From Candidatus Poribacteria bacterium (GTDB lineage: Bacteria > Poribacteria > WGA-4E > GCA-2687025), in assembly GCA_016866785.1 (NCBI GenBank), contig VGLH01000021.1:1-38845 (forward strand): DNA of 38,845 bases, written 5' to 3'. The notes under the pieces were generated by a model that searched no databases, was not told where the DNA came from, and saw nothing but the letters and a program-made list of their open reading frames with translations. Made by a program: the position numbers and the translations under genes. Shown here piece after piece: positions 14,502-23,686 of this stretch; within the stretch, counting starts at the first letter, position 1, and each line of letters opens with the position of its first letter.

Positions 14502-14972
14502 GTGATCTTCTCGCGGTCATGTGAGCACGGAATCAACGTCGTGCTCTACCTGGCGGTCAGCGGTCGCGAGGGATTTATCCCCGTGCGTACGCTTGCCCAA
14601 AGGTGCAGCATCCCATTTCACTTCCTCGGGAAGATCTGCGGGCAACTGACGCATAGCGGCATCCTCCAGTCGCACAAAGGTCCCAACGGCGGCGTCGCAC
14701 TGGGACGACCGATGTCGGGCATCACCTTGCTGCAGGTCGTCGATGCCATCGACGGGCTGGAGCAGTTCGACGGCTGTGTGCTGGGTCTGGAACCGTGCAG
14801 TTGCGTGAATCCGTGTCCCGTCCATGAACACTGGGCTGCGATCAAGGCGAGTATCCAGACGATGCTCGCCTCCAAGACTCTCGACCAACTCGCCAGCGAG
14901 TTGGCACAAGGCAAGAAGACGTTGAAGACGTCGTTCGGTGGGGTTCCCAAAGGACGTTCCGTAGTCGTCTAG
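14502..14972 (+). CDS. Rrf2-family Fe-S transcriptional regulator
   Basis: A 156-residue protein. An N-terminal winged helix (YLAVSGREGFIPVRTLAQRC, then FLGKICGQLTHSGILQSHKG and PNGGVALGRP) is followed by the dimerisation helix (ITLLQVVDAIDGL) and a cysteine-rich segment with C92, C99, C101 and C105. Rrf2 regulators such as IscR and NsrR carry an Fe-S cluster there that senses redox state, iron or nitric oxide. This spacing (C-x6-C-x-C-x3-C) has four cysteines rather than three. The start is the GTG at 14502, with GGAGG 6 bases upstream. It is the first gene of the operon, 12 bases before the zinc-ribbon gene, and probably controls it. Confidence 0.9.
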   Translation: MIFSRSCEHGINVVLYLAVSGREGFIPVRTLAQRCSIPFHFLGKICGQLTHSGILQSHKGPNGGVALGRPMSGITLLQVVDAIDGLEQFDGCVLGLEPCSCVNPCPVHEHWAAIKASIQTMLASKTLDQLASELAQGKKTLKTSFGGVPKGRSVVV

Positions 14973-14984
14973 CGAGTTGGCGCG

Positions 14985-16034
14985 ATGTCAGACAGCAATT
15001 CTCTGCGCGGGCTGAACCGTCTGTTTCATCAGTTCCCGATACCAGAGTCTTCGGTCGCCATTTGGGTGGAGAAGCGGTTCGTCGAAGTGCTGGTCGACGA
15101 CGCCATCCATCGCCGGCGGGATCGCGGCGATGCCTCCGCCTATGACGCCTACCACGAAGAGGCGGACGCGATCTACGACATGCCCGCCGCATCTCGCGAC
15201 GAAGCCTTTTCTGTGCTGCACGCGGCGTTCTTCGTCAAGCTGGGGCTGCATCAGCCGTTCGTGACGGTCGTGCGCGAGTTCCCGACCTGCCCAGGGCAGG
15301 CCGCCGCGCTGCTGGTCGCCCAGGTGCGTTCCGCGCAGGACGAGTCGGTCGATCTCGAGCGACGAAGCGGCGATGCCGCTCAGGCGCGCAACATCGGCGT
15401 TCGGATTCGAGCCGAGCGATTCGTCGATCTGCAGGGGCTGGCCCGCCACCTGCGTCAGGAGATGATGCCCGTCGCAGACCTCCTCGACCCCGCGTTCCAG
15501 TCCGACGTGCGTCCCAGTTGGCGCGTGCAGTCTCCGACAGAAGAGAACCTGCTCCGCGATCGGTATCGATCTCTGTGGTGCGTGAACATCAGCGGACGCC
15601 TGGAGCGACGCCAAGTCCAGGGAACCCAGACGCGGGCGATGGTGCGCGCCGAGTTCGACCGGTTGTTCCGCAGGCTGCCGGAGAACTCGCGCGACCGGGC
15701 ATTCGAACGCCTCTGGGCGGCGGATTCGATCACGCACCCGGACCTCATGACGTTGTGTGCGAGTGTGAAGGCGCTGGGGTGGTATGCCGACGACGGGAGC
15801 ATCGTGGCGTCGCCGGAAACCGCCGAGGCTGTCGTCGTGGAGCCCGTGGACGGGGCTCCGTGTCCGTTGTGCCGGTTCCCGACCTTCCGATGGGTCCTGC
15901 CCGGGGAGATGGTCGGGGAGCGCATGGAGGGCGTTGTCGCCCGGGTCCGTTCGCAATTCCGTGACTGGCGACCGGAACAGGGCATCTGTGAGCGATGTCT
16001 CGAACGCATGGAAATGGACGTGCTGGCTAGTTGA
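14985..16034 (+). CDS. Uncharacterised protein with C-terminal zinc ribbon, in molybdoenzyme operon
   Basis: A 349-residue soluble protein that I do not recognise. The body is mostly helical and charged. The last ~57 residues carry two CxxC pairs (C293/C296 in CPLCRFPTF, C335/C338 in ICERCLERM), a probable zinc ribbon or small Fe-S site. No signal peptide is seen, so it should be cytoplasmic. It lies 12 bases after the regulator and 35 before the catalytic subunit, so a role in regulation, cofactor insertion or maturation of the complex is plausible but unproven. The ATG at 14985 lacks a strong ribosome site and may be coupled to the upstream gene. Confidence 0.8.
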   Translation: MSDSNSLRGLNRLFHQFPIPESSVAIWVEKRFVEVLVDDAIHRRRDRGDASAYDAYHEEADAIYDMPAASRDEAFSVLHAAFFVKLGLHQPFVTVVREFPTCPGQAAALLVAQVRSAQDESVDLERRSGDAAQARNIGVRIRAERFVDLQGLARHLRQEMMPVADLLDPAFQSDVRPSWRVQSPTEENLLRDRYRSLWCVNISGRLERRQVQGTQTRAMVRAEFDRLFRRLPENSRDRAFERLWAADSITHPDLMTLCASVKALGWYADDGSIVASPETAEAVVVEPVDGAPCPLCRFPTFRWVLPGEMVGERMEGVVARVRSQFRDWRPEQGICERCLERMEMDVLAS

Positions 16035-16069
16035 CCCGCCGTCGCGGGCCCAACTCTGAGGAGAGCAAC

Positions 16070-19000
16070 ATGGCGATCACTCGCCGCAGGTTCCTGCAAG
16101 CCGCCGGGGTCGTCGGCGGAACGACGCTCATCGGCGAGATCGGATGCCGCACACGGCGGCTCAAGTCCGTCGTGTCGGTCGATAACCCGCTCGACGTCTA
16201 CCCGAACCGTGGATGGGAGACGATCTACCGCGACCAGTACGCGTATGACCGCAGCTTCGCGTGGGTCTGCTCGCCCAACTGCACGCACCAGTGCCGGCTG
16301 CTCGCGTTCGAGCGGAACGGCGTCGTAACGCGCATCGAGCAGAACTACGACATCGGCAGGTACTCGGACCTGTACGGGAACCAGGCGACCGTGAATTGGA
16401 ACCCGCGCGGCTGCAACAAGGGATACACGTTCCATCGTCGCCTCTACGGACCCTACCGCCTGCGCTACCCGATCGTGCGCAAGGGATGGAAGCAGTGGGC
16501 GGACGATGGGTTCCCGTACCTGACCGATGCCAACCGGTCCAAGTACAAGTTCGACGCGCGCGGCTCGGACACCTTCACGCGCATCTCGTGGGACGAGACG
16601 TTCGACTATATCGCCAAGGGTCTCACGAGCATCTCCAAGACGTACAGCGGACCCGAAGGCGCGAAGCGGCTCGCGGAGCAGGGCTACGAACCCGAGATGA
16701 TCGAGGACATGGGCGGCGCGGGAACGCGGACGCTCAAGTTCCGTGGCGGCATGGGGCTGCTGGGGGTCATCGGGAAATACGGCATGTATCGCCTGTCCAA
16801 TTCGATGGCGCTCGTGGACGCCAAGATACGGGGCGTCGGCGAGGAAAAGGCGCGCGGCGGCAGGAACTGGTCGAACTACACCTGGCATGGCGACCAAGCG
16901 CCGGGACATCCGTGGGTGCATGGGCTCCAGACGAGCGATACCGACTTCAACGACCTGCGCTCGTCCAAGCTCATCATCATGTCGGGCAAGAACCTCGTCG
17001 AGAACAAGATGGCGGACGCGCACTTCTTCATCGAGTGCATGGAGCGCGGCGCGAAGATCGTCGTCATCAGCCCGGAGTACGGCGCGCCGTCCACCAAGGC
17101 GGACTACTGGATTCCGATCCGCCCCAACAGCGATACGGCGCTCTTCCTGGGCATCACGAAGTGGCTCATCGACAACAAGCGCTATGACGCCGACTTCGTG
17201 AAGCAGTTCACCGACTTCCCGCTGCTCGTCCGCACGGACAACCTGAAGCGCCTCAAGCCGCAGGACATTGTCGCCGGGTACAAGAACCAGAACATCTCGT
17301 CGGGACCCAGTTACAAACACCACGGTCTGAAGGACGAGCTCCGCGATAAGATCGGCGACTTCGTCGTTTGGGACGGCAAGACGAACAAACCGGTGGCGAT
17401 CACGCGGGACGATGTCGGCAAGACCCTGGTGTCGAAGGGCGTCGATCCCGTCCTCGAAGGGAAGTTCACGGTCAAGACCGTGGACGGCAAGTCCGTCGAG
17501 GTGATGACGCTGTTCGAGATGTACAAGACCCACCTGCGGGACTACGACCTCGACGCCGTCGAAGAGATCACGCGTGCGCCCAAGGACCTTGTCCTGCGGC
17601 TCTGCGAAGACATCGCGACGACGAAGCCGTTCGCGATTCACCAGGGAGAGGGGATCAACCACTGGTTCCACGCGACGCTGGCGAACCGAGCTGCCTATCT
17701 GCCGGCGATGCTGACCGGCAATGTCGGGCGCAAGGGCGCGGGCGTCCACACGTGGGCTGGGAACTACAAGGCGGCGTTGTTCCAGGGTTCCGCTTGGTCT
17801 GGACCCGGGTTCAAGGGATGGGTCGCGGAGGACCCGTTCCATTTGACGCTTGACGGCACGGTGCATGGCAAGGAGATCAAGGCGCACGGCTTCACCAAGG
17901 ACGAGGAGCCGGCGTACTGGAACCACGGCGACCGTCCGCTGATCGTCAAGACGCCCAAGTACGGGCGCAAGGTCTTCACCGGCAAGAGCCACATGCCGAC
18001 GCCGACGAAGGCGATGGTGTTCAGCAACGTGAACCTCATCAACAACGCCAAGCATGCCTACGACATGCTCAAGAACGTGAACCCGAAGGTCGAGATGATC
18101 GTGTCGGTCGATATCCAGATGACCGCCTCGGTCGAATACGCCGACTTCGGGCTTCCCGCCAACTCGTGGGTCGAGTTCGAGGGGAAGGAGATCACGGCGG
18201 CGTGTCAGAACCCCTTCCTCCAGATTTGGGGCGGCAAGGACAACGCGATTCCGCCGCTGTTCGACAGCAAGGACGACGTGGAGGTTCTCGCCGGAATCGG
18301 ACGCGCCCTCGCCAAGGTCAACGGCGATCAACGTCTGGCGGACATGTGGAAGTTCGTCAACGACGGGAACCGCGACGTCTATATCCAGCGCTTGCTGGAC
18401 ACCTGCACGACGACGGCGGGCTACCAGCTCGCGGACGTCATGTCGGGCAAGTACGGCGAGCCGGGCGCGGCGCTGATGCTCTTCCGCACCTACCCGCGCA
18501 TCCCGTTCTGGGAGCAGGTCGAGGACAATCTGCCCTTCTACACGGATCACGGGCGGCTCGCGGCGTACAGCGACCTCGACGAAGCCATCGAGTATGGCGA
18601 GAACTTCATCGTCCATCGGGAGGGTCCCGAAGGCACGCCGTACCTGCCCAACGTCATCGTCAGCTCGAGCCCCTACATCCGTCCTGACGACTACGGAATC
18701 CCGGCGAGCGCGATGCACTGGGACGAGCGCACCGTCCGCAACCTCAAGATGCCGTGGAGCCGAGTCAAGACGAGCAAGAACCCGCTGTGGGATCGGGGAT
18801 ACCAGTTCTTCTGCCTCACGCCCAAGACGCGCCACCGCGTCCACTCGTCGTGGAGCGACACGGACTGGCATCTGATCTGGGACTCCAACTTCGGCGACCC
18901 GTACCGCATGGACAAGCGCATGCCGGGCGTCGGGGAACACCAGCTCCATATGAACCCCCAGGCGGCGAAGGACCTGGGCATCGAGGACGGAGACTACGTC

Positions 19001-19528
19001 TACGTCGACTCGAACGCGGCGGACCGTCCCTACAGGAACTGGGACCCGTCAGACCCGTTCTACAAGGTCGCGCGGTTGATGCTCCGCGCGCGGTACAACC
19101 ACGCCTATCCGTACAACGTCGTCATGATGAAGCACGCGCCGTACATCGCCACGGAGCGGAGCGTCAAGGCGCACGAGACGCGGAAGGACGGCAGGGCGCT
19201 GTCCGAAGACACCGGCTATCAGTCGAACCTGCGGTACGGCTCGCAGCAGAGCGTGACCCGCAACTGGCACATGCCGATGCACCAGACGGACACGCTCTTC
19301 CACAAGTCGAAGGCGTTCATGGGATTCATGCTGGGTGGTGAGGCGGACAACCACGCGATCAACACGGTGCCCAAGGAGACGCTCGTCAAGGTCGTCAAAG
19401 CCGAGGACGGCGGGCTGGGCGGCAAGGGCATCTGGAACCCCAAGAAGACGGGATTCGCACCGGAGACCGAGGATGAGCACATGCTGAAGTACCTCGCCGG
19501 CACGCTGGTCGACGTGAGGAAATCGTAG
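16070..19528 (+). CDS. NxrA/NarG-like molybdopterin catalytic subunit, Tat-exported (type II DMSO reductase family)
   Basis: A 1152-residue Mo-bisPGD oxidoreductase. A twin-arginine signal (ITRRRFLQAAGVVGG) sends it to the periplasm with its partners. The FS0 [4Fe-4S] site has C67, C71, C75 (CSPNCTHQC) and C115. Asp275 in WHGDQAPGHPW aligns with the Mo-ligand Asp of NarG, placing it in the type II group. The length and motifs such as KFRGGMGLLG, TFHRRLYGPYRL, LGIEDGDYVYVDS and KAEDGGLGGKGIW resemble the periplasmic nitrite oxidoreductase/nitrate reductase clade of Nitrospira and anammox bacteria, as I recall them. Whether it oxidises nitrite, reduces nitrate or uses another oxyanion cannot be decided. 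GAGGAG lies 7 bases before the ATG at 16070. An upstream start at 16031 would precede the Tat motif and lacks a ribosome site. Confidence 0.93.
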   Translation: MAITRRRFLQAAGVVGGTTLIGEIGCRTRRLKSVVSVDNPLDVYPNRGWETIYRDQYAYDRSFAWVCSPNCTHQCRLLAFERNGVVTRIEQNYDIGRYSDLYGNQATVNWNPRGCNKGYTFHRRLYGPYRLRYPIVRKGWKQWADDGFPYLTDANRSKYKFDARGSDTFTRISWDETFDYIAKGLTSISKTYSGPEGAKRLAEQGYEPEMIEDMGGAGTRTLKFRGGMGLLGVIGKYGMYRLSNSMALVDAKIRGVGEEKARGGRNWSNYTWHGDQAPGHPWVHGLQTSDTDFNDLRSSKLIIMSGKNLVENKMADAHFFIECMERGAKIVVISPEYGAPSTKADYWIPIRPNSDTALFLGITKWLIDNKRYDADFVKQFTDFPLLVRTDNLKRLKPQDIVAGYKNQNISSGPSYKHHGLKDELRDKIGDFVVWDGKTNKPVAITRDDVGKTLVSKGVDPVLEGKFTVKTVDGKSVEVMTLFEMYKTHLRDYDLDAVEEITRAPKDLVLRLCEDIATTKPFAIHQGEGINHWFHATLANRAAYLPAMLTGNVGRKGAGVHTWAGNYKAALFQGSAWSGPGFKGWVAEDPFHLTLDGTVHGKEIKAHGFTKDEEPAYWNHGDRPLIVKTPKYGRKVFTGKSHMPTPTKAMVFSNVNLINNAKHAYDMLKNVNPKVEMIVSVDIQMTASVEYADFGLPANSWVEFEGKEITAACQNPFLQIWGGKDNAIPPLFDSKDDVEVLAGIGRALAKVNGDQRLADMWKFVNDGNRDVYIQRLLDTCTTTAGYQLADVMSGKYGEPGAALMLFRTYPRIPFWEQVEDNLPFYTDHGRLAAYSDLDEAIEYGENFIVHREGPEGTPYLPNVIVSSSPYIRPDDYGIPASAMHWDERTVRNLKMPWSRVKTSKNPLWDRGYQFFCLTPKTRHRVHSSWSDTDWHLIWDSNFGDPYRMDKRMPGVGEHQLHMNPQAAKDLGIEDGDYVYVDSNAADRPYRNWDPSDPFYKVARLMLRARYNHAYPYNVVMMKHAPYIATERSVKAHETRKDGRALSEDTGYQSNLRYGSQQSVTRNWHMPMHQTDTLFHKSKAFMGFMLGGEADNHAINTVPKETLVKVVKAEDGGLGGKGIWNPKKTGFAPETEDEHMLKYLAGTLVDVRKS

Positions 19529-19534
19529 CTCGCG

Positions 19535-19556
19535 GGCGGGCCCGCACGGGCCCGCC
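19535..19556 (+). promoter_or_regulatory. Perfect GC hairpin between catalytic and small-protein genes
   Basis: GGCGGGCCCG (19535-19544) and CGGGCCCGCC (19547-19556) form a perfect 10-bp inverted repeat, just after the catalytic-subunit stop. With no T-run it is more likely an mRNA-stability or partial attenuation element than a terminator. Confidence 0.55.
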
Positions 19557-19577
19557 GGCACTCAGGGAGTCGCATCG

Positions 19578-19952
19578 ATGCCCAAAGATGAAGTCGCCCT
19601 CACCGATCCGATGGAGCTCTCCGGGATGCTCGGGCCCGCGATGACGCCCGAGGACATCGCGGAGATGACCCGCTGCATCGTGGACGAGTACGTCCGCATG
19701 GGGCTCGACGATGCGGAGGTCTACGAGCTCTTCAGCGATCCGAACTATCCGGTCACGCACGCCATCCTGCGGAGCCACGGCGAAGGCTACGTGCGAGAGG
19801 CGATCGCGGAGATACGGGCGCGTTGGGGAGGCGTCTGGCGGTTCCGCACCGAGATGGAGCCCGGCGCCGACGAGATCGAGGATGACATCGACGCGCTGCT
19901 CGAAGACGAGTACATCCCCGCCAGCACGATCAGCAAGTTCGACTGGGCGTAG
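19578..19952 (+). CDS. Small acidic protein of the Nxr-like operon, unknown function
   Basis: A 124-residue acidic protein with no recognised domain, signal peptide or membrane span. It is helix-rich (MTPEDIAEMTRCIVDEYVRM, VREAIAEIRARWGGVW) and ends in an acidic stretch (ADEIEDDIDALLEDEY). GGGAG lies 8 bases upstream of the ATG, and only 11 bases separate it from the Fe-S subunit gene, so it is translated as part of the operon. Its place between the two main subunits suggests an assembly factor or an extra small subunit. With no signal it would have to act in the cytoplasm or be carried out with the Tat-exported complex. Confidence 0.8.
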   Translation: MPKDEVALTDPMELSGMLGPAMTPEDIAEMTRCIVDEYVRMGLDDAEVYELFSDPNYPVTHAILRSHGEGYVREAIAEIRARWGGVWRFRTEMEPGADEIEDDIDALLEDEYIPASTISKFDWA

Positions 19953-19963
19953 AGGAGAACCAC

Positions 19964-21232
19964 ATGCCACAGGTCTACAACTGGCAGCTCGGCAGGGAGA
20001 TGAGCTATCCCTACGAAGCTCGCCATCCGCAATGGCAGTTCGCGTTCGTCTTCAACATCAACCGGTGTCTCGGCTGCCAGACGTGCACCGTCGCGTGCAA
20101 GTCCACATGGACCTTCTCCAAGGGGCAGGAATACATGTGGTGGAACAACGTTGAGACGAAGCCCTACGGCGGCTATCCGCAGTTCTGGGATGTCAAGGCG
20201 CTCCGACTGCTCGAAGACGCCAACCCCGGCGGGCAGACGTGGACGGAGAAGGCGGGCGACGCGAAGGCTCCCTACGGAACGTACGACGGCATCACGCTCT
20301 TCGAGGGAGCCGAACGGCGCTTCGGGGACGACGGTTCCCGCCGCGTGCTGGGATACATGCCCGCCGACGATGAATGGACCGCTCCGAACATCTACGAGGA
20401 CACGCCCAAGGGCGAGAAGGGCGTGCGGAACCAATTCCGCCACGGCTCGGCGATGCTGCCGTCGCACGATACGTGGTTCTTCTACCTGCAGCGGCTGTGC
20501 AACCACTGCTCCTATCCGGCGTGTCTCGCCGCCTGCCCGCGCAAGGCGATCTACAAGCGGCAGGAGGACGGGATCGTCCTCATCGACCAGAATCGCTGCC
20601 GTGGCTACAAGAAGTGCGTCGAAGCCTGCCCATACAAGAAGTCGCTCTACCGAGGCACGACGCGCGTGTCGGAGAAGTGCGTCGGCTGCTACCCGCGCGT
20701 CGAGGGGAAGGACCCGATGTCCGAAGGTGCGCCGATGGAGACGCGCTGCATGGCGGCGTGCATCGGCAAGATCCGGATGCAGGGCTTGGTCGCGGTGAAC
20801 GAGGACGGGAGTTGGACCGAGGACAAGTCGAACCCGCTCTACTACATGGTGAAGGTCGCCAAGGTCGCCCTCCCGCTCTATCCGCAGTTCGGGACGGAGC
20901 CGAACGGCTACTACATCCCGCCGCGCTGGGTTCCTCGTCCCTACCTGCGGCAGATGTTCGGGCCCGGCGTCGATCAGGCGATCGAGCAGTACACGGCTCC
21001 ATCGCGCGAACTGCTCGCCATCATGCAGTTGTTCCGCGTCTCGCGCCGGATCATCTTCAAGTACGAGATCGAAGAGGGCGAGAAGGTCTACGAGACGACG
21101 ATCAACGGCAAGCCGTGGGCGATGTACAACGACACGGTCATCGGATTCGGCAAGGACGGCAAGGAGATCGTCCGCACGACGGTCGAGGAACCGCTCCACG
21201 TCCGTCCCGACAAGCACGCGAACGCGATCTAG
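19964..21232 (+). CDS. NxrB/NarH-like four-cluster iron-sulfur subunit
   Basis: A 422-residue electron-transfer subunit, close to the ~430 I recall for Nitrospira NxrB. Cluster ligands are visible in four groups: C35/C38/C41/C45 (CLGCQTCTVAC), CNHCSYPACLAACP, CRGYKKCVEACP and CVGCYPR with ETRCMAACIGKIR. In the third group Tyr sits where a cluster cysteine would be, the pattern known to give a [3Fe-4S] centre in NarH. So three [4Fe-4S] and one [3Fe-4S] are expected. Strongly conserved stretches are MWWNNVETKPYGGYPQFWD and FGTEPNGYYIPPRW. There is no signal peptide, so export probably rides on the catalytic subunit's Tat signal. GAGGAG precedes the ATG. Confidence 0.95.
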   Translation: MPQVYNWQLGREMSYPYEARHPQWQFAFVFNINRCLGCQTCTVACKSTWTFSKGQEYMWWNNVETKPYGGYPQFWDVKALRLLEDANPGGQTWTEKAGDAKAPYGTYDGITLFEGAERRFGDDGSRRVLGYMPADDEWTAPNIYEDTPKGEKGVRNQFRHGSAMLPSHDTWFFYLQRLCNHCSYPACLAACPRKAIYKRQEDGIVLIDQNRCRGYKKCVEACPYKKSLYRGTTRVSEKCVGCYPRVEGKDPMSEGAPMETRCMAACIGKIRMQGLVAVNEDGSWTEDKSNPLYYMVKVAKVALPLYPQFGTEPNGYYIPPRWVPRPYLRQMFGPGVDQAIEQYTAPSRELLAIMQLFRVSRRIIFKYEIEEGEKVYETTINGKPWAMYNDTVIGFGKDGKEIVRTTVEEPLHVRPDKHANAI

Positions 21233-21260
21233 GAGCGCCAGAGCGCACGGAGGCGGGTCG

Positions 21261-22046
21261 ATGACAGTTGCCGACCGGATCGCGACAAACATGGCGCGAA
21301 GCCAGATCCATCGCTACCTTGCGGACGCGTTCGACTACCCGGATGCCGAGCTCGCCGAATCGGTCCGCTCCGGTCGGCTGCAGCAAGGGATCGCCGGCGC
21401 TGCGGCGCAGTTGCCGGAGATCAAAGGCGAGGACCCCGCCGCCGAAGCGGCGTGTCTCGAGGCGGTCGCGTGGCTCACGTCCCACGCGGGCGAGATCACG
21501 CTAGATCGCCTCGACACGGAGTACGGCGCGGTGTTCGGGCACGCGCTCTCGCGGGACTGCCCGCAGTATGAGACGGAGTATGTCGGTGAGCACATCTTCT
21601 ACCAGTCGCAGGAGCTGGCGGACATCTCCGGGTTCTACCGGGCGTATGAGCTGGACGTGTCGGAGACGGCTCACGAACGTCTCGACCATGTGAGCGTCGA
21701 GCTGGAGTGGATGCACGTGGTCGCAGCGCGCGAGGCGTACGCGCTCCAGGAGGGGAAGTCGGAACAGGCGGAAGTGTGCCGCGACTCACAGCGACAGTTT
21801 GTCGAGGCGCACATCGGTCGATGGGGTTCCTACTTCGCGCGGCTGGTCGCCTCCGCTGCGCCGGACACCGTGTATCGTCGGTTCGCGGATGTTCTGCAGT
21901 GGTTTTTGGAATATGAGACTCGATCTCTAAACGCGTCACCGGAGCAGGTCGTTGCCATTCGCCCCGTCGAGACCTTCGACGAGGAGGCAGAGGCGGCGCG
22001 CGCGCCGGGTTCTGACGTCCAGTGGGTAGGAGACATGACACGATGA
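21261..22046 (+). CDS. TorD/NarJ-family molybdoenzyme maturation chaperone
   Basis: A 261-residue all-helical protein. Family motifs are CPQYETEY (100-107), ELADISGFYRA (118-128) and DHVSVELEWM (142-151), the TorD hallmark. These cytoplasmic chaperones hold the apo catalytic subunit, guard its Tat signal and help insert the Mo cofactor. Its position directly after the Fe-S subunit fits that job for the 16070-19528 product. GGAGG lies 8 bases before the ATG. The stop overlaps the next start as ATGA (22043-22046), so the two are translationally coupled. Confidence 0.92.
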   Translation: MTVADRIATNMARSQIHRYLADAFDYPDAELAESVRSGRLQQGIAGAAAQLPEIKGEDPAAEAACLEAVAWLTSHAGEITLDRLDTEYGAVFGHALSRDCPQYETEYVGEHIFYQSQELADISGFYRAYELDVSETAHERLDHVSVELEWMHVVAAREAYALQEGKSEQAEVCRDSQRQFVEAHIGRWGSYFARLVASAAPDTVYRRFADVLQWFLEYETRSLNASPEQVVAIRPVETFDEEAEAARAPGSDVQWVGDMTR

Positions 22047-23632
22047 AGCGCGGAGTATGGATGTACGTCATCCCGGCGGTGTTGTTCGTCGCCGTTGCCG
22101 CCGGCGCGGTGTGGCTCCTGCGCAATCGACCGCAGGGGGACCAAGGGGCGAAGGGTCCGCTGACGGCGGCGCAGAAGCTCTACAACCGGGAGTGCCTGGT
22201 CTGCCACGGACCGACGGGCGAGGGGAACGGGCAGGCAGCCTACCTGCTCTATCCCAAGCCGCGAGACTTCACCAAGGGGTGGTTCAAGGTCCGGTCGACG
22301 CCTTCGGGTCAGTTGCCGACCGACGCAGACCTGCTCGCCGTGCTGAAGCGCGGCATGCCGGGATCGGCGATGCCCAGCTTCGCGCACCTGTCCGACGAAG
22401 AGCTGAACCTGCTCGTCAGCGTCGTGAAGGGGTTCGCGCCGGCGTTCGCGGAGCGTCAGCCGACGGAGGGCATCGCGCCCCCGGCTCCGCTGCCTCAGAC
22501 GCCTGAGAACATCGCGCGCGGCAAAGAGGTCTACGCCCAGATGCAGTGCGCCGCCTGCCACGGCGAGATGGGCAGAGCCGACGGCTTGTCGTCCGCGATG
22601 CTCACGGACGACTGGGGTCTGCAGATCAAGGCGAACGACTTCACGCGCGGCATCTACAAGGGCGGCGGGCGCGACGAGGACATCTATCTCCGGTTCCGCA
22701 CCGGTATGACCGGAACGCCCATGCCGTCCTATGAGGGACTGCTGCCGGACAACGACATCTACGCGGTCGTGCAGTACGTGAAGTCGCTCGCGGGGGATGT
22801 GCCGGAGGCTGTGCAGCCCCAGCAGGCGTCGTTGACGGCGGCGAAGGTCGCCGGAGCGGTTCCCGAAGATCCGCTGAGCCCGGCGTGGGGTTCCGCGCCA
22901 TCGACGTCGTTGCCGCTGATGCTGCTTTATCAGCGTCGCGAATCGTCGGCGCACGTTGACGTCAAGGCGGTTCACAACGGCAAGGAAGTCGCCATCCTGA
23001 TGGAGTGGAGTGACGCTGCCGTGAACGCCGAAACGATCCGGCCGCAGGACTTCAGCGACGGCGGCGGCGTGCAGTTCGCGTTGAGATCCGACGTGTCGCT
23101 GGAATCCCTGACGATGGGAGCCGCGACCACGCCGGTCAACATCTGGTACTGGCGCGCGAGCCGACAGATGGACCTGGTGGCGTACGCCGACGTCGAGGCG
23201 GTCTACCCGAACGTAGCCCCGGATGGGTACCTTCAGGCGAAGCCGTTCGACCCGAAGGAAGACGAGAGCAAGCGGCATGACATTCCTGCTGCCGCGAGCT
23301 ACGACAAGACCTATCTGACGGCGCTGGCGGCAGGGAACCCCGTGTCGAACCCGACGCGGACGGTTCCGATGGAAGACCTCAACGCAGAGGGATTCGGTTC
23401 GCTCACGACGCAGCCCGACGCGAGCCAAAACGTCCGTGGCGCGGGCGTCTGGGACAACGGCAAGTGGAAGGTTGTGTTCGTTCGCCCGTTGGCTTCGCCG
23501 GATCAGACCGATGCCAAGCTGACGGCTGGCAAACAGGTTCCGGTCGCCTTCGCTGTGTGGGACGGCGGACAAGGCGACCGTAACGGTCAGAAGTCCGTGA
23601 CCAACTGGAATCTTCTGACACTCGCCCCTTAG
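22043..23632 (+). CDS. NxrC-like subunit: anchored dihaem cytochrome c fused to ethylbenzene-dehydrogenase-type haem domain
   Basis: A 529-residue protein. One N-terminal membrane segment (5-25) is followed by two class I cytochrome c domains: CLVCH (51-55), with GMPGSAMPSF downstream as the likely Met-ligand loop, and CAACH (169-173), with TGMTGTPMPSY. Residues ~280-520 form a beta-rich domain of the ethylbenzene dehydrogenase/DMSO reductase gamma (haem b) type. In relatives the gamma subunit takes electrons from the Fe-S subunit. Here they could flow Mo to Fe-S to haem b to two haems c and on to a periplasmic carrier or quinone. Fusion of both modules in one chain is the unusual point. It is the last gene of the operon, followed by a strong terminator. 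Confidence 0.9.
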   Translation: MKRGVWMYVIPAVLFVAVAAGAVWLLRNRPQGDQGAKGPLTAAQKLYNRECLVCHGPTGEGNGQAAYLLYPKPRDFTKGWFKVRSTPSGQLPTDADLLAVLKRGMPGSAMPSFAHLSDEELNLLVSVVKGFAPAFAERQPTEGIAPPAPLPQTPENIARGKEVYAQMQCAACHGEMGRADGLSSAMLTDDWGLQIKANDFTRGIYKGGGRDEDIYLRFRTGMTGTPMPSYEGLLPDNDIYAVVQYVKSLAGDVPEAVQPQQASLTAAKVAGAVPEDPLSPAWGSAPSTSLPLMLLYQRRESSAHVDVKAVHNGKEVAILMEWSDAAVNAETIRPQDFSDGGGVQFALRSDVSLESLTMGAATTPVNIWYWRASRQMDLVAYADVEAVYPNVAPDGYLQAKPFDPKEDESKRHDIPAAASYDKTYLTALAAGNPVSNPTRTVPMEDLNAEGFGSLTTQPDASQNVRGAGVWDNGKWKVVFVRPLASPDQTDAKLTAGKQVPVAFAVWDGGQGDRNGQKSVTNWNLLTLAP

Positions 23633-23651
23633 GGCGTGTAAGCACGAGGAC

Positions 23652-23686
23652 GTCCCGCCGAGTTTTGCAGGCTCGGCGGGACTTTT
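23652..23686 (+). terminator. Intrinsic terminator of the Nxr-like operon
   Basis: GTCCCGCCGAG (23652-23662) pairs perfectly with CTCGGCGGGAC (23672-23682), with a 9-base loop, then TTTT. It ends the rightward operon 20 bases after the last stop and may also serve the convergent aldo/keto reductase gene. Confidence 0.88.

Follow-up and report, generated by a model that had tools for sequence, protein, structure and literature searches.

In the nitrite oxidoreductase (NXR) of Kuenenia stuttgartiensis, the [4Fe-4S] cluster of the catalytic subunit, FS0, has three Cys and Asp71 as its ligands (Chicano et al., PMC8387239), and FS0 in NXRs and nitrate reductases (NARs) is stated there to be likely of 3Cys/1Asp or 3Cys/1His type. 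The Kuenenia enzyme is bidirectional in vitro, with nitrate reduction about 25 times faster than nitrite oxidation when artificial partners are used (PMC8387239). An alternative NxrC with two c-haems (alt_NxrC), TorD, and a zinc-finger protein are common to Kuenenia, Nitrospira, and Nitrospina (PMC3578206), and residue differences between NXR and NAR are listed in PMC12300631. The window, i.e., the whole stretch of DNA analysed here, is 38,845 nt long and represents contig VGLH01000021.1 (C21) of a Candidatus Poribacteria metagenome-assembled genome (MAG; G000) of 4.35 Mb in 291 contigs, with 95% completeness and 3.4% contamination. It carries an NXR-type operon in the gene order rrf2, znr, nxrA, sm, nxrB, torD, nxrC. 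What is new here is a naturally occurring switch of the FS0 ligand from Asp to Cys in an NXR under purifying selection.

Membership of NxrA and NxrB in the Nitrospira/anammox-type NXR clade is supported by structure-database matches and, for NxrA, by phylogeny. When compared with all PDB chains, NxrA matched Kuenenia NXR-A (7b04_B) with 1854 bits over its full length (1-1149), and perchlorate reductase PcrA, EbdA, and NarG with 230, 153, and 117-123 bits, respectively. NxrB matched Kuenenia NXR-B (7b04_A) in full length with 632 bits, followed by PcrB (211), EbdB (200), and NarH (178). In a tree of 81 NxrA sequences, the window is within a 17-row set (Shimodaira-Hasegawa approximate likelihood ratio test 100) with Brocadiaceae anammox NXR, NC10, Acidobacteria, Chloroflexi, and Rokubacteria. 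It stays inside the NXR core when E. coli and Thermus NarG, ClrA, and haloarchaeal enzymes are added as outgroups; the order within the core changes in this tree, where anammox Brocadia branches earlier and the window's clade is sister to an Omnitrophota/Phycisphaerae group. Brocadiaceae sequences and the PDB match to Kuenenia served as anchors of the NXR clade; the trees are without Nitrospira and Nitrospina sequences, and the position of these relative to the window's clade is taken from the literature (PMC3578206, PMC10203281). The Mo ligand Asp275, the substrate residue Asn70, and the NXR-type residues Asn312, Glu527, and Lys919 (Lys917 in the reference) are kept in the window NxrA, and a twin-arginine translocation (Tat) signal sequence, TRRRFLQ, is near its N terminus, with TAT_signal models scoring just under cut-offs. 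A sequence-only reading of this DNA had placed both main subunits in this clade; the full-length Kuenenia matches and the branching of NxrA inside the clade, apart from NarG and ClrA, bear this out, while the change at FS0 had not been noticed.

Residue 71 of the window NxrA is Cys, and Cys67, Cys75, and Cys115 are also there; an all-cysteine (4-Cys) FS0 is therefore predicted, unlike the 3Cys/1Asp cluster of Kuenenia. Because the 3Cys/1Asp ligation, a trait which the clade conserves although it is not defined by it, is not found, the enzyme is filed as a putative variant within the NXR clade and not as a canonical NXR. Every other active-site and haem ligand checked is kept in the window proteins. 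Among 82 aligned NxrA rows, residue 71 is Asp in 78 and Cys in four, and a search through the phylum of L106 added 23 distinct loci (22 Asp, one Cys), some of them from a paralogous clade of about 40% identity. With duplicates removed so that each locus is counted once, Asp71 is present in 100 of 105 distinct sampled loci. The five Cys71 loci are the window, those of the related genomes G010 and G008, and one locus in each of two Rokubacteria/Methylomirabilota genomes (L106, L160). A further poribacterial genome of the same family, G007, has a Cys71 second nxrA beside an Asp-type first copy. The NxrA tree requires two changes to Cys71, one in the Poribacteria lineage and one in Rokubacteria/Methylomirabilota, and Cys71 thus arose twice, independently, and persists. 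The nxrA gene is under purifying selection, with nonsynonymous divergence (dN) of 0.16-0.17 and synonymous divergence (dS) of 0.73-1.37 among three related genomes.

Three observations were made beside this. In G007 (L140 8996-10274, L139), the Cys71-type copy is cut by the contig end, and the Asp-type copy adjoins two consecutive dihaem-NxrC genes. A haloarchaeal plasmid enzyme (L184 1501-4710), 33% identical and outside the NXR core, has the motif CHPNCTQSC and a predicted all-Cys FS0; such clusters are therefore not unknown outside the NXR clade. A second NxrA-like paralogue of Methylomirabilota (L150, L151, L164, L168-L176), at about 42% identity, has Asp71, Thr312, and Met527, and seems intermediate between NXR and NAR residues.

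At its N terminus NxrC has a hydrophobic helix, either an anchor or a signal, which is followed by a dihaem cytochrome c module with motifs CLVCH at 51 and CAACH at 169 and by a C-terminal haem-b domain. Two CXXCH motifs are present in nearly all intact NxrC homologues. The haem-b ligands Met358/Lys517 align with Met155/Lys305 of Kuenenia, and PDB matches are 6h5l_B with 176 bits and 7b04_C with 111 bits. The protein is similar to the alternative type of NxrC reported from Nitrospina (PMC3578206). It had earlier been called a cytochrome/haem subunit, which holds, although its fused dihaem nature was missed. The dihaem module (window 22043-22800) is closest in PDB to chain 6h5l_B, a "conserved hypothetical cytochrome protein" presumed here to be the partner of a Kuenenia hydroxylamine oxidoreductase (HAO)-like enzyme, and several redox enzymes of nitrogen oxides may therefore have this module in common.

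The operon probably encodes a periplasmic, probably membrane-anchored NxrABC that interconverts nitrite and nitrate and is coupled to periplasmic cytochrome c, a reading which is held with somewhat better than even confidence. NxrA would fold around FS0 and molybdenum bis-pyranopterin guanine dinucleotide (Mo-bisPGD) with the aid of TorD, and Tat would export it with NxrB as a passenger. At the Mo site, with Asp275 and Asn70, nitrite would be oxidised or nitrate reduced, and electrons would pass reversibly between Mo, FS0, FS1-4 of NxrB, haem b and the fused c-haems of NxrC, and periplasmic cytochrome c. Two CtaD/CoxA-type aa3 oxidases were identified on the G000 genome, and these could drain the cytochrome c pool. 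Under oxic conditions a heterotroph would most likely use nitrite as an additional electron donor, and at low oxygen the enzyme could reverse as a nitrate reductase. In the family searches and the few stretches from which the gene content of G000 was taken, no NirK was over the cut-off, no NirS was convincing, and no NrfA was found, absences from a MAG being weak evidence. Because of the two oxidases and the undetected NirK, NirS, and NrfA, nitrite oxidation is mildly favoured as the direction. No oxyanion-type PF00384 enzyme other than the NXR was found in G000; the remaining PF00384 proteins are a formate dehydrogenase and the product of a short gene beside nuoH, which is probably NuoG.

Several findings weigh against this proposal. 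FS0 has lost its Asp ligand. A search for a monohaem cytochrome like NXR-T, confined to the window, found none, and the only two CXXCH motifs in ORFs (open reading frames) there belong to nxrC. Nor did G000 yield a formate/nitrite transporter of the FNT family. RuBisCO and CdhC, the two markers to which the search for CO2 fixation was limited, were not found in G000, and no autotrophic lifestyle of a nitrite-oxidising bacterium (NOB) is therefore shown. G010, the nearest relative with a Cys71 NxrA, has complete NrfA and NrfH-like genes (L137 2741-4811), which suggest nitrate-to-ammonium reduction there and so fit nitrate reduction. It is accordingly possible, if less probable, that the enzyme works in vivo chiefly as a periplasmic respiratory nitrate reductase, in which a cytochrome c or bc-type complex would feed NxrC and then nitrate, with nitrite released or passed on. 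The NrfAH of G010, the faster nitrate reduction by Kuenenia NXR, the lower potential that an all-Cys FS0 should have, and the undetected RuBisCO and CdhC all agree with it. The operon, however, is without a quinol dehydrogenase of NarI, NapC, or NrfH type, Met/Lys haem-b ligation together with c-haems is the NXR arrangement, and the oxidases and undetected nitrite reductases of G000 point the other way. A nitrite reductase of another type may be present in G000, because a candidate octahaem cytochrome c (Multi-haem_cyto, with weak similarity to hydrazine dehydrogenase, HDH) is encoded on contig C111 (L134 1251-3867). This gene adjoins a cytochrome b gene, and the two could form a nitrogen-oxide or quinol-linked redox complex.

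An all-Cys FS0 should lower the potential of the cluster, and catalysis may be biased or slowed in one direction. Rothery et al. are said to have found in 2010 that the all-Cys variant H49C of E. coli NarG had a far lower FS0 potential and was inactive. By analogy, the Cys71 enzyme could be catalytically crippled or repurposed, with its FS0 ligand altered and its zinc-ribbon partner without HExxH in the window. This is unlikely, as nxrA is under purifying selection across genera with intact reading frames, the remaining checked ligands are conserved, and Cys71 arose twice and persists. It is a tentative and somewhat improbable idea that a free-living lineage of Poribacteria conserves energy from nitrite, that the single change from Asp to Cys, which Rokubacteria acquired independently, retuned the catalytic bias, and that the two forms in one poribacterial genome run in opposite directions. 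The Cys71 variant, its close Asp-type relatives, and one genome with both forms are a direct test case for what sets the direction of the enzyme.

It is very improbable that the enzyme acts instead on perchlorate, chlorate, selenate, ethylbenzene, or dimethyl sulphide, like other members of the type II dimethyl sulphoxide (DMSO) reductase family. The superfamily is the same and NxrC has a haem domain of ethylbenzene-dehydrogenase type, but the NxrA score for Kuenenia NXR-A far exceeds those for PcrA and EbdA, FS0 is without a His ligand, NXR-type active-site residues are kept, and NxrA is inside the NXR clade, apart from ClrA and NarG. Identity as a perchlorate, chlorate, or hydrocarbon enzyme was rejected by the bit scores and the NxrA tree, with SerA and DdhA outside the comparison. 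E. coli NarGHI is like the window system in its type II DMSO-reductase family, four-cluster beta subunit, and NarJ/TorD-type chaperone, but it is cytoplasmic, with His49 as FS0 ligand and a membrane quinol-oxidising NarI, and its NarG is a low match. Identity as NarGHI was rejected because the FS0 ligand is Cys67 and not His, NarI is not in the operon, and the sequences are separate in the tree. A binning error, by which the contig and operon would come from another phylum, is hardly credible, for although the MAG has many contigs and some contamination and nxr clusters are scattered across phyla, full-length NxrA of G010 and G008 is 78-79% identical to that of the window and in one clade with it, G007 has a further Cys-type copy, and the glycogen-phosphorylase gene adjoining the operon is closest to the window's family (54-60%, with the rest of the phylum at about 48%).

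Full-length nxrA was found in four of six genomes of the window's family; the 79 other Poribacteria genomes gave none, with 57 bits for their best match. The nxr genes are limited to one of ten Poribacteria families. The nxrA genes of G010 and G007 are identical to those of "Candidatus Poribacteria" MAGs casp150-mb.226 and ARS61, and with the adjoining gene closest to the same family, the poribacterial origin proposed from the sequence alone stands. Relevance to sponges, also proposed, is not supported, because nxr genes are restricted to the window's family; they are absent from f8, the family with the largest number of genomes, which would be the sponge-associated group. In a study that compared 62 poribacterial genomes, genes of dissimilatory nitrate reduction were reported as absent and those of denitrification as undetected (PMC8546597). 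No report of nxr in Poribacteria was found in a limited literature search, and the phylum appears to be new as an nxr carrier. With an NXR-type enzyme in one of its families, the phylum would join the candidates for nitrite/nitrate conversion.

In a scan of a genome collection, 240 stretches encoding NxrA relatives were found, and the best 80 of these belong to Omnitrophota, Planctomycetota, Acidobacteriota, Methylomirabilota, Verrucomicrobiota, and others. Since similar clusters are found in many phyla, the NXR-type cluster is of a known kind, and putative nxr genes of the window's clade were published for Planctomycetota (PMC10732223); the operon earlier singled out as a notable find is present, but that its kind was already known had been overlooked. 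The exact order znr-nxrA-sm-nxrB-torD-nxrC is common to L037 and L057 (Methylomirabilota) and L041 (Acidobacteria), and L048 (Poribacteria), a relative with an Asp71-type enzyme, has the order of the window with sm not detected. In most other related clusters, nxrC is first, before nxrA. The putative clusters in MAGs of Methylomirabilota, Acidobacteriota, Omnitrophota, and Planctomycetota (e.g., PMC10732223) have NxrA identities of 67-72% to the window, but Asp71 in all sampled except the two Methylomirabilota/Rokubacteria genomes, and mostly nxrC ahead of nxrA. Kuenenia NXR-ABC (PDB 7b04) is like the window enzyme in full-length NxrA and NxrB matches, Asp275, Asn70, and Met/Lys ligation of haem b. 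It is unlike it in residue 71 and in the dihaem c fused to NxrC in the window; an NXR-T-like cytochrome is missing from the window, and the window organism is not an anammox bacterium. The nxr genes of anammox Brocadia are accompanied by torD and a zinc-ribbon gene, as in the window. Compared by description, the clusters of Nitrospina and Nitrospira (PMC3578206) share Tat-exported NxrA, alternative NxrC, TorD, and a zinc-finger protein with the window operon, which is without their cupredoxins, bd-like oxidase, and separate cytochromes.

All seven co-directional ORFs of the operon as first outlined were confirmed, spanning 14502-23632 on the + strand, with close spacing and a strong terminator at the end (Table 1). 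Neighbouring genes are 11-49 bases apart, except for torD and nxrC, which share 4 bases, and third-position G+C content is 0.75-0.90. Domains were assigned by Pfam and NCBIfam profile searches of the window proteins. Transcription as one unit is inferred from the spacing, because a scan for sigma-70-like promoters found none and terminator-like sites, five in total with one strong hairpin-T, were equal in number to those in shuffled sequence. Homologues of rrf2 are present in some related nxr loci too.

Table 1. Coordinates of the operon features in the window.
Feature	Description	Position	Strand	Support
rrf2	Rrf2/IscR-type Fe-S transcriptional regulator	14502..14972	+	PF02082 90 bits (1.8e-25 for Rrf2), TIGR00738 91 bits
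znr	NXR-cluster zinc-ribbon protein	14985..16034	+	two invariant CxxC pairs in homologues
nxrA	catalytic Mo-bisPGD subunit, Tat signal, one [4Fe-4S] (FS0)	16070..19528	+	TIGR03479 8.9e-111; Kuenenia match
nxrA codon 71	TGC (Cys) replacing FS0 Asp ligand of Kuenenia NXR	16280..16282	+	alignment, codon read
sm	small conserved nxr-cluster protein (MPKDE..DPMEL), 124 aa	19578..19952	+	34 aligned homologues
nxrB	four-cluster Fe-S subunit	19964..21232	+	TIGR03478 5.4e-76; Kuenenia NXR-B match
torD	TorD/NarJ-type Mo-cofactor chaperone	21261..22046	+	TIGR03482 3.2e-24; PF02613 5.5e-18
nxrC	alt_NxrC type, dihaem c + haem-b	22043..23632	+	TIGR03477 6.7e-43; EB_dh 1.8e-33; PF09459, PF00034
terminator	intrinsic hairpin, 14 pairs, then TTTT	23652..23682	+	terminator scan

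No Pfam or NCBIfam model matched the zinc-ribbon protein or the 124-aa small protein. Zinc-ribbon homologues are encoded in about 60 related nxr loci, and C293, C296, C335, and C338 are invariant in 43 homologues. A metallopeptidase-like motif HExxH is present in 35 of 59 alignment rows, those of anammox Brocadia included, and is degraded to QEMMP in the window copy. The AlphaFold2 (AF2) model of the zinc-ribbon protein has pLDDT of 91, and a fold search in PDB gave nothing significant, with a zinc metallopeptidase as the best match (E 0.58). Identity as an FdhE-like maturation factor was rejected, with no Pfam FdhE match and no PDB sequence match. The protein is probably the "putative zinc finger" of NOB and anammox NXR clusters (PMC3578206). 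The small protein had neither a sequence nor a fold match in PDB; it has a helical core at pLDDT >90, and its gene lies between those of NxrA and NxrB in some 40 loci from different phyla.

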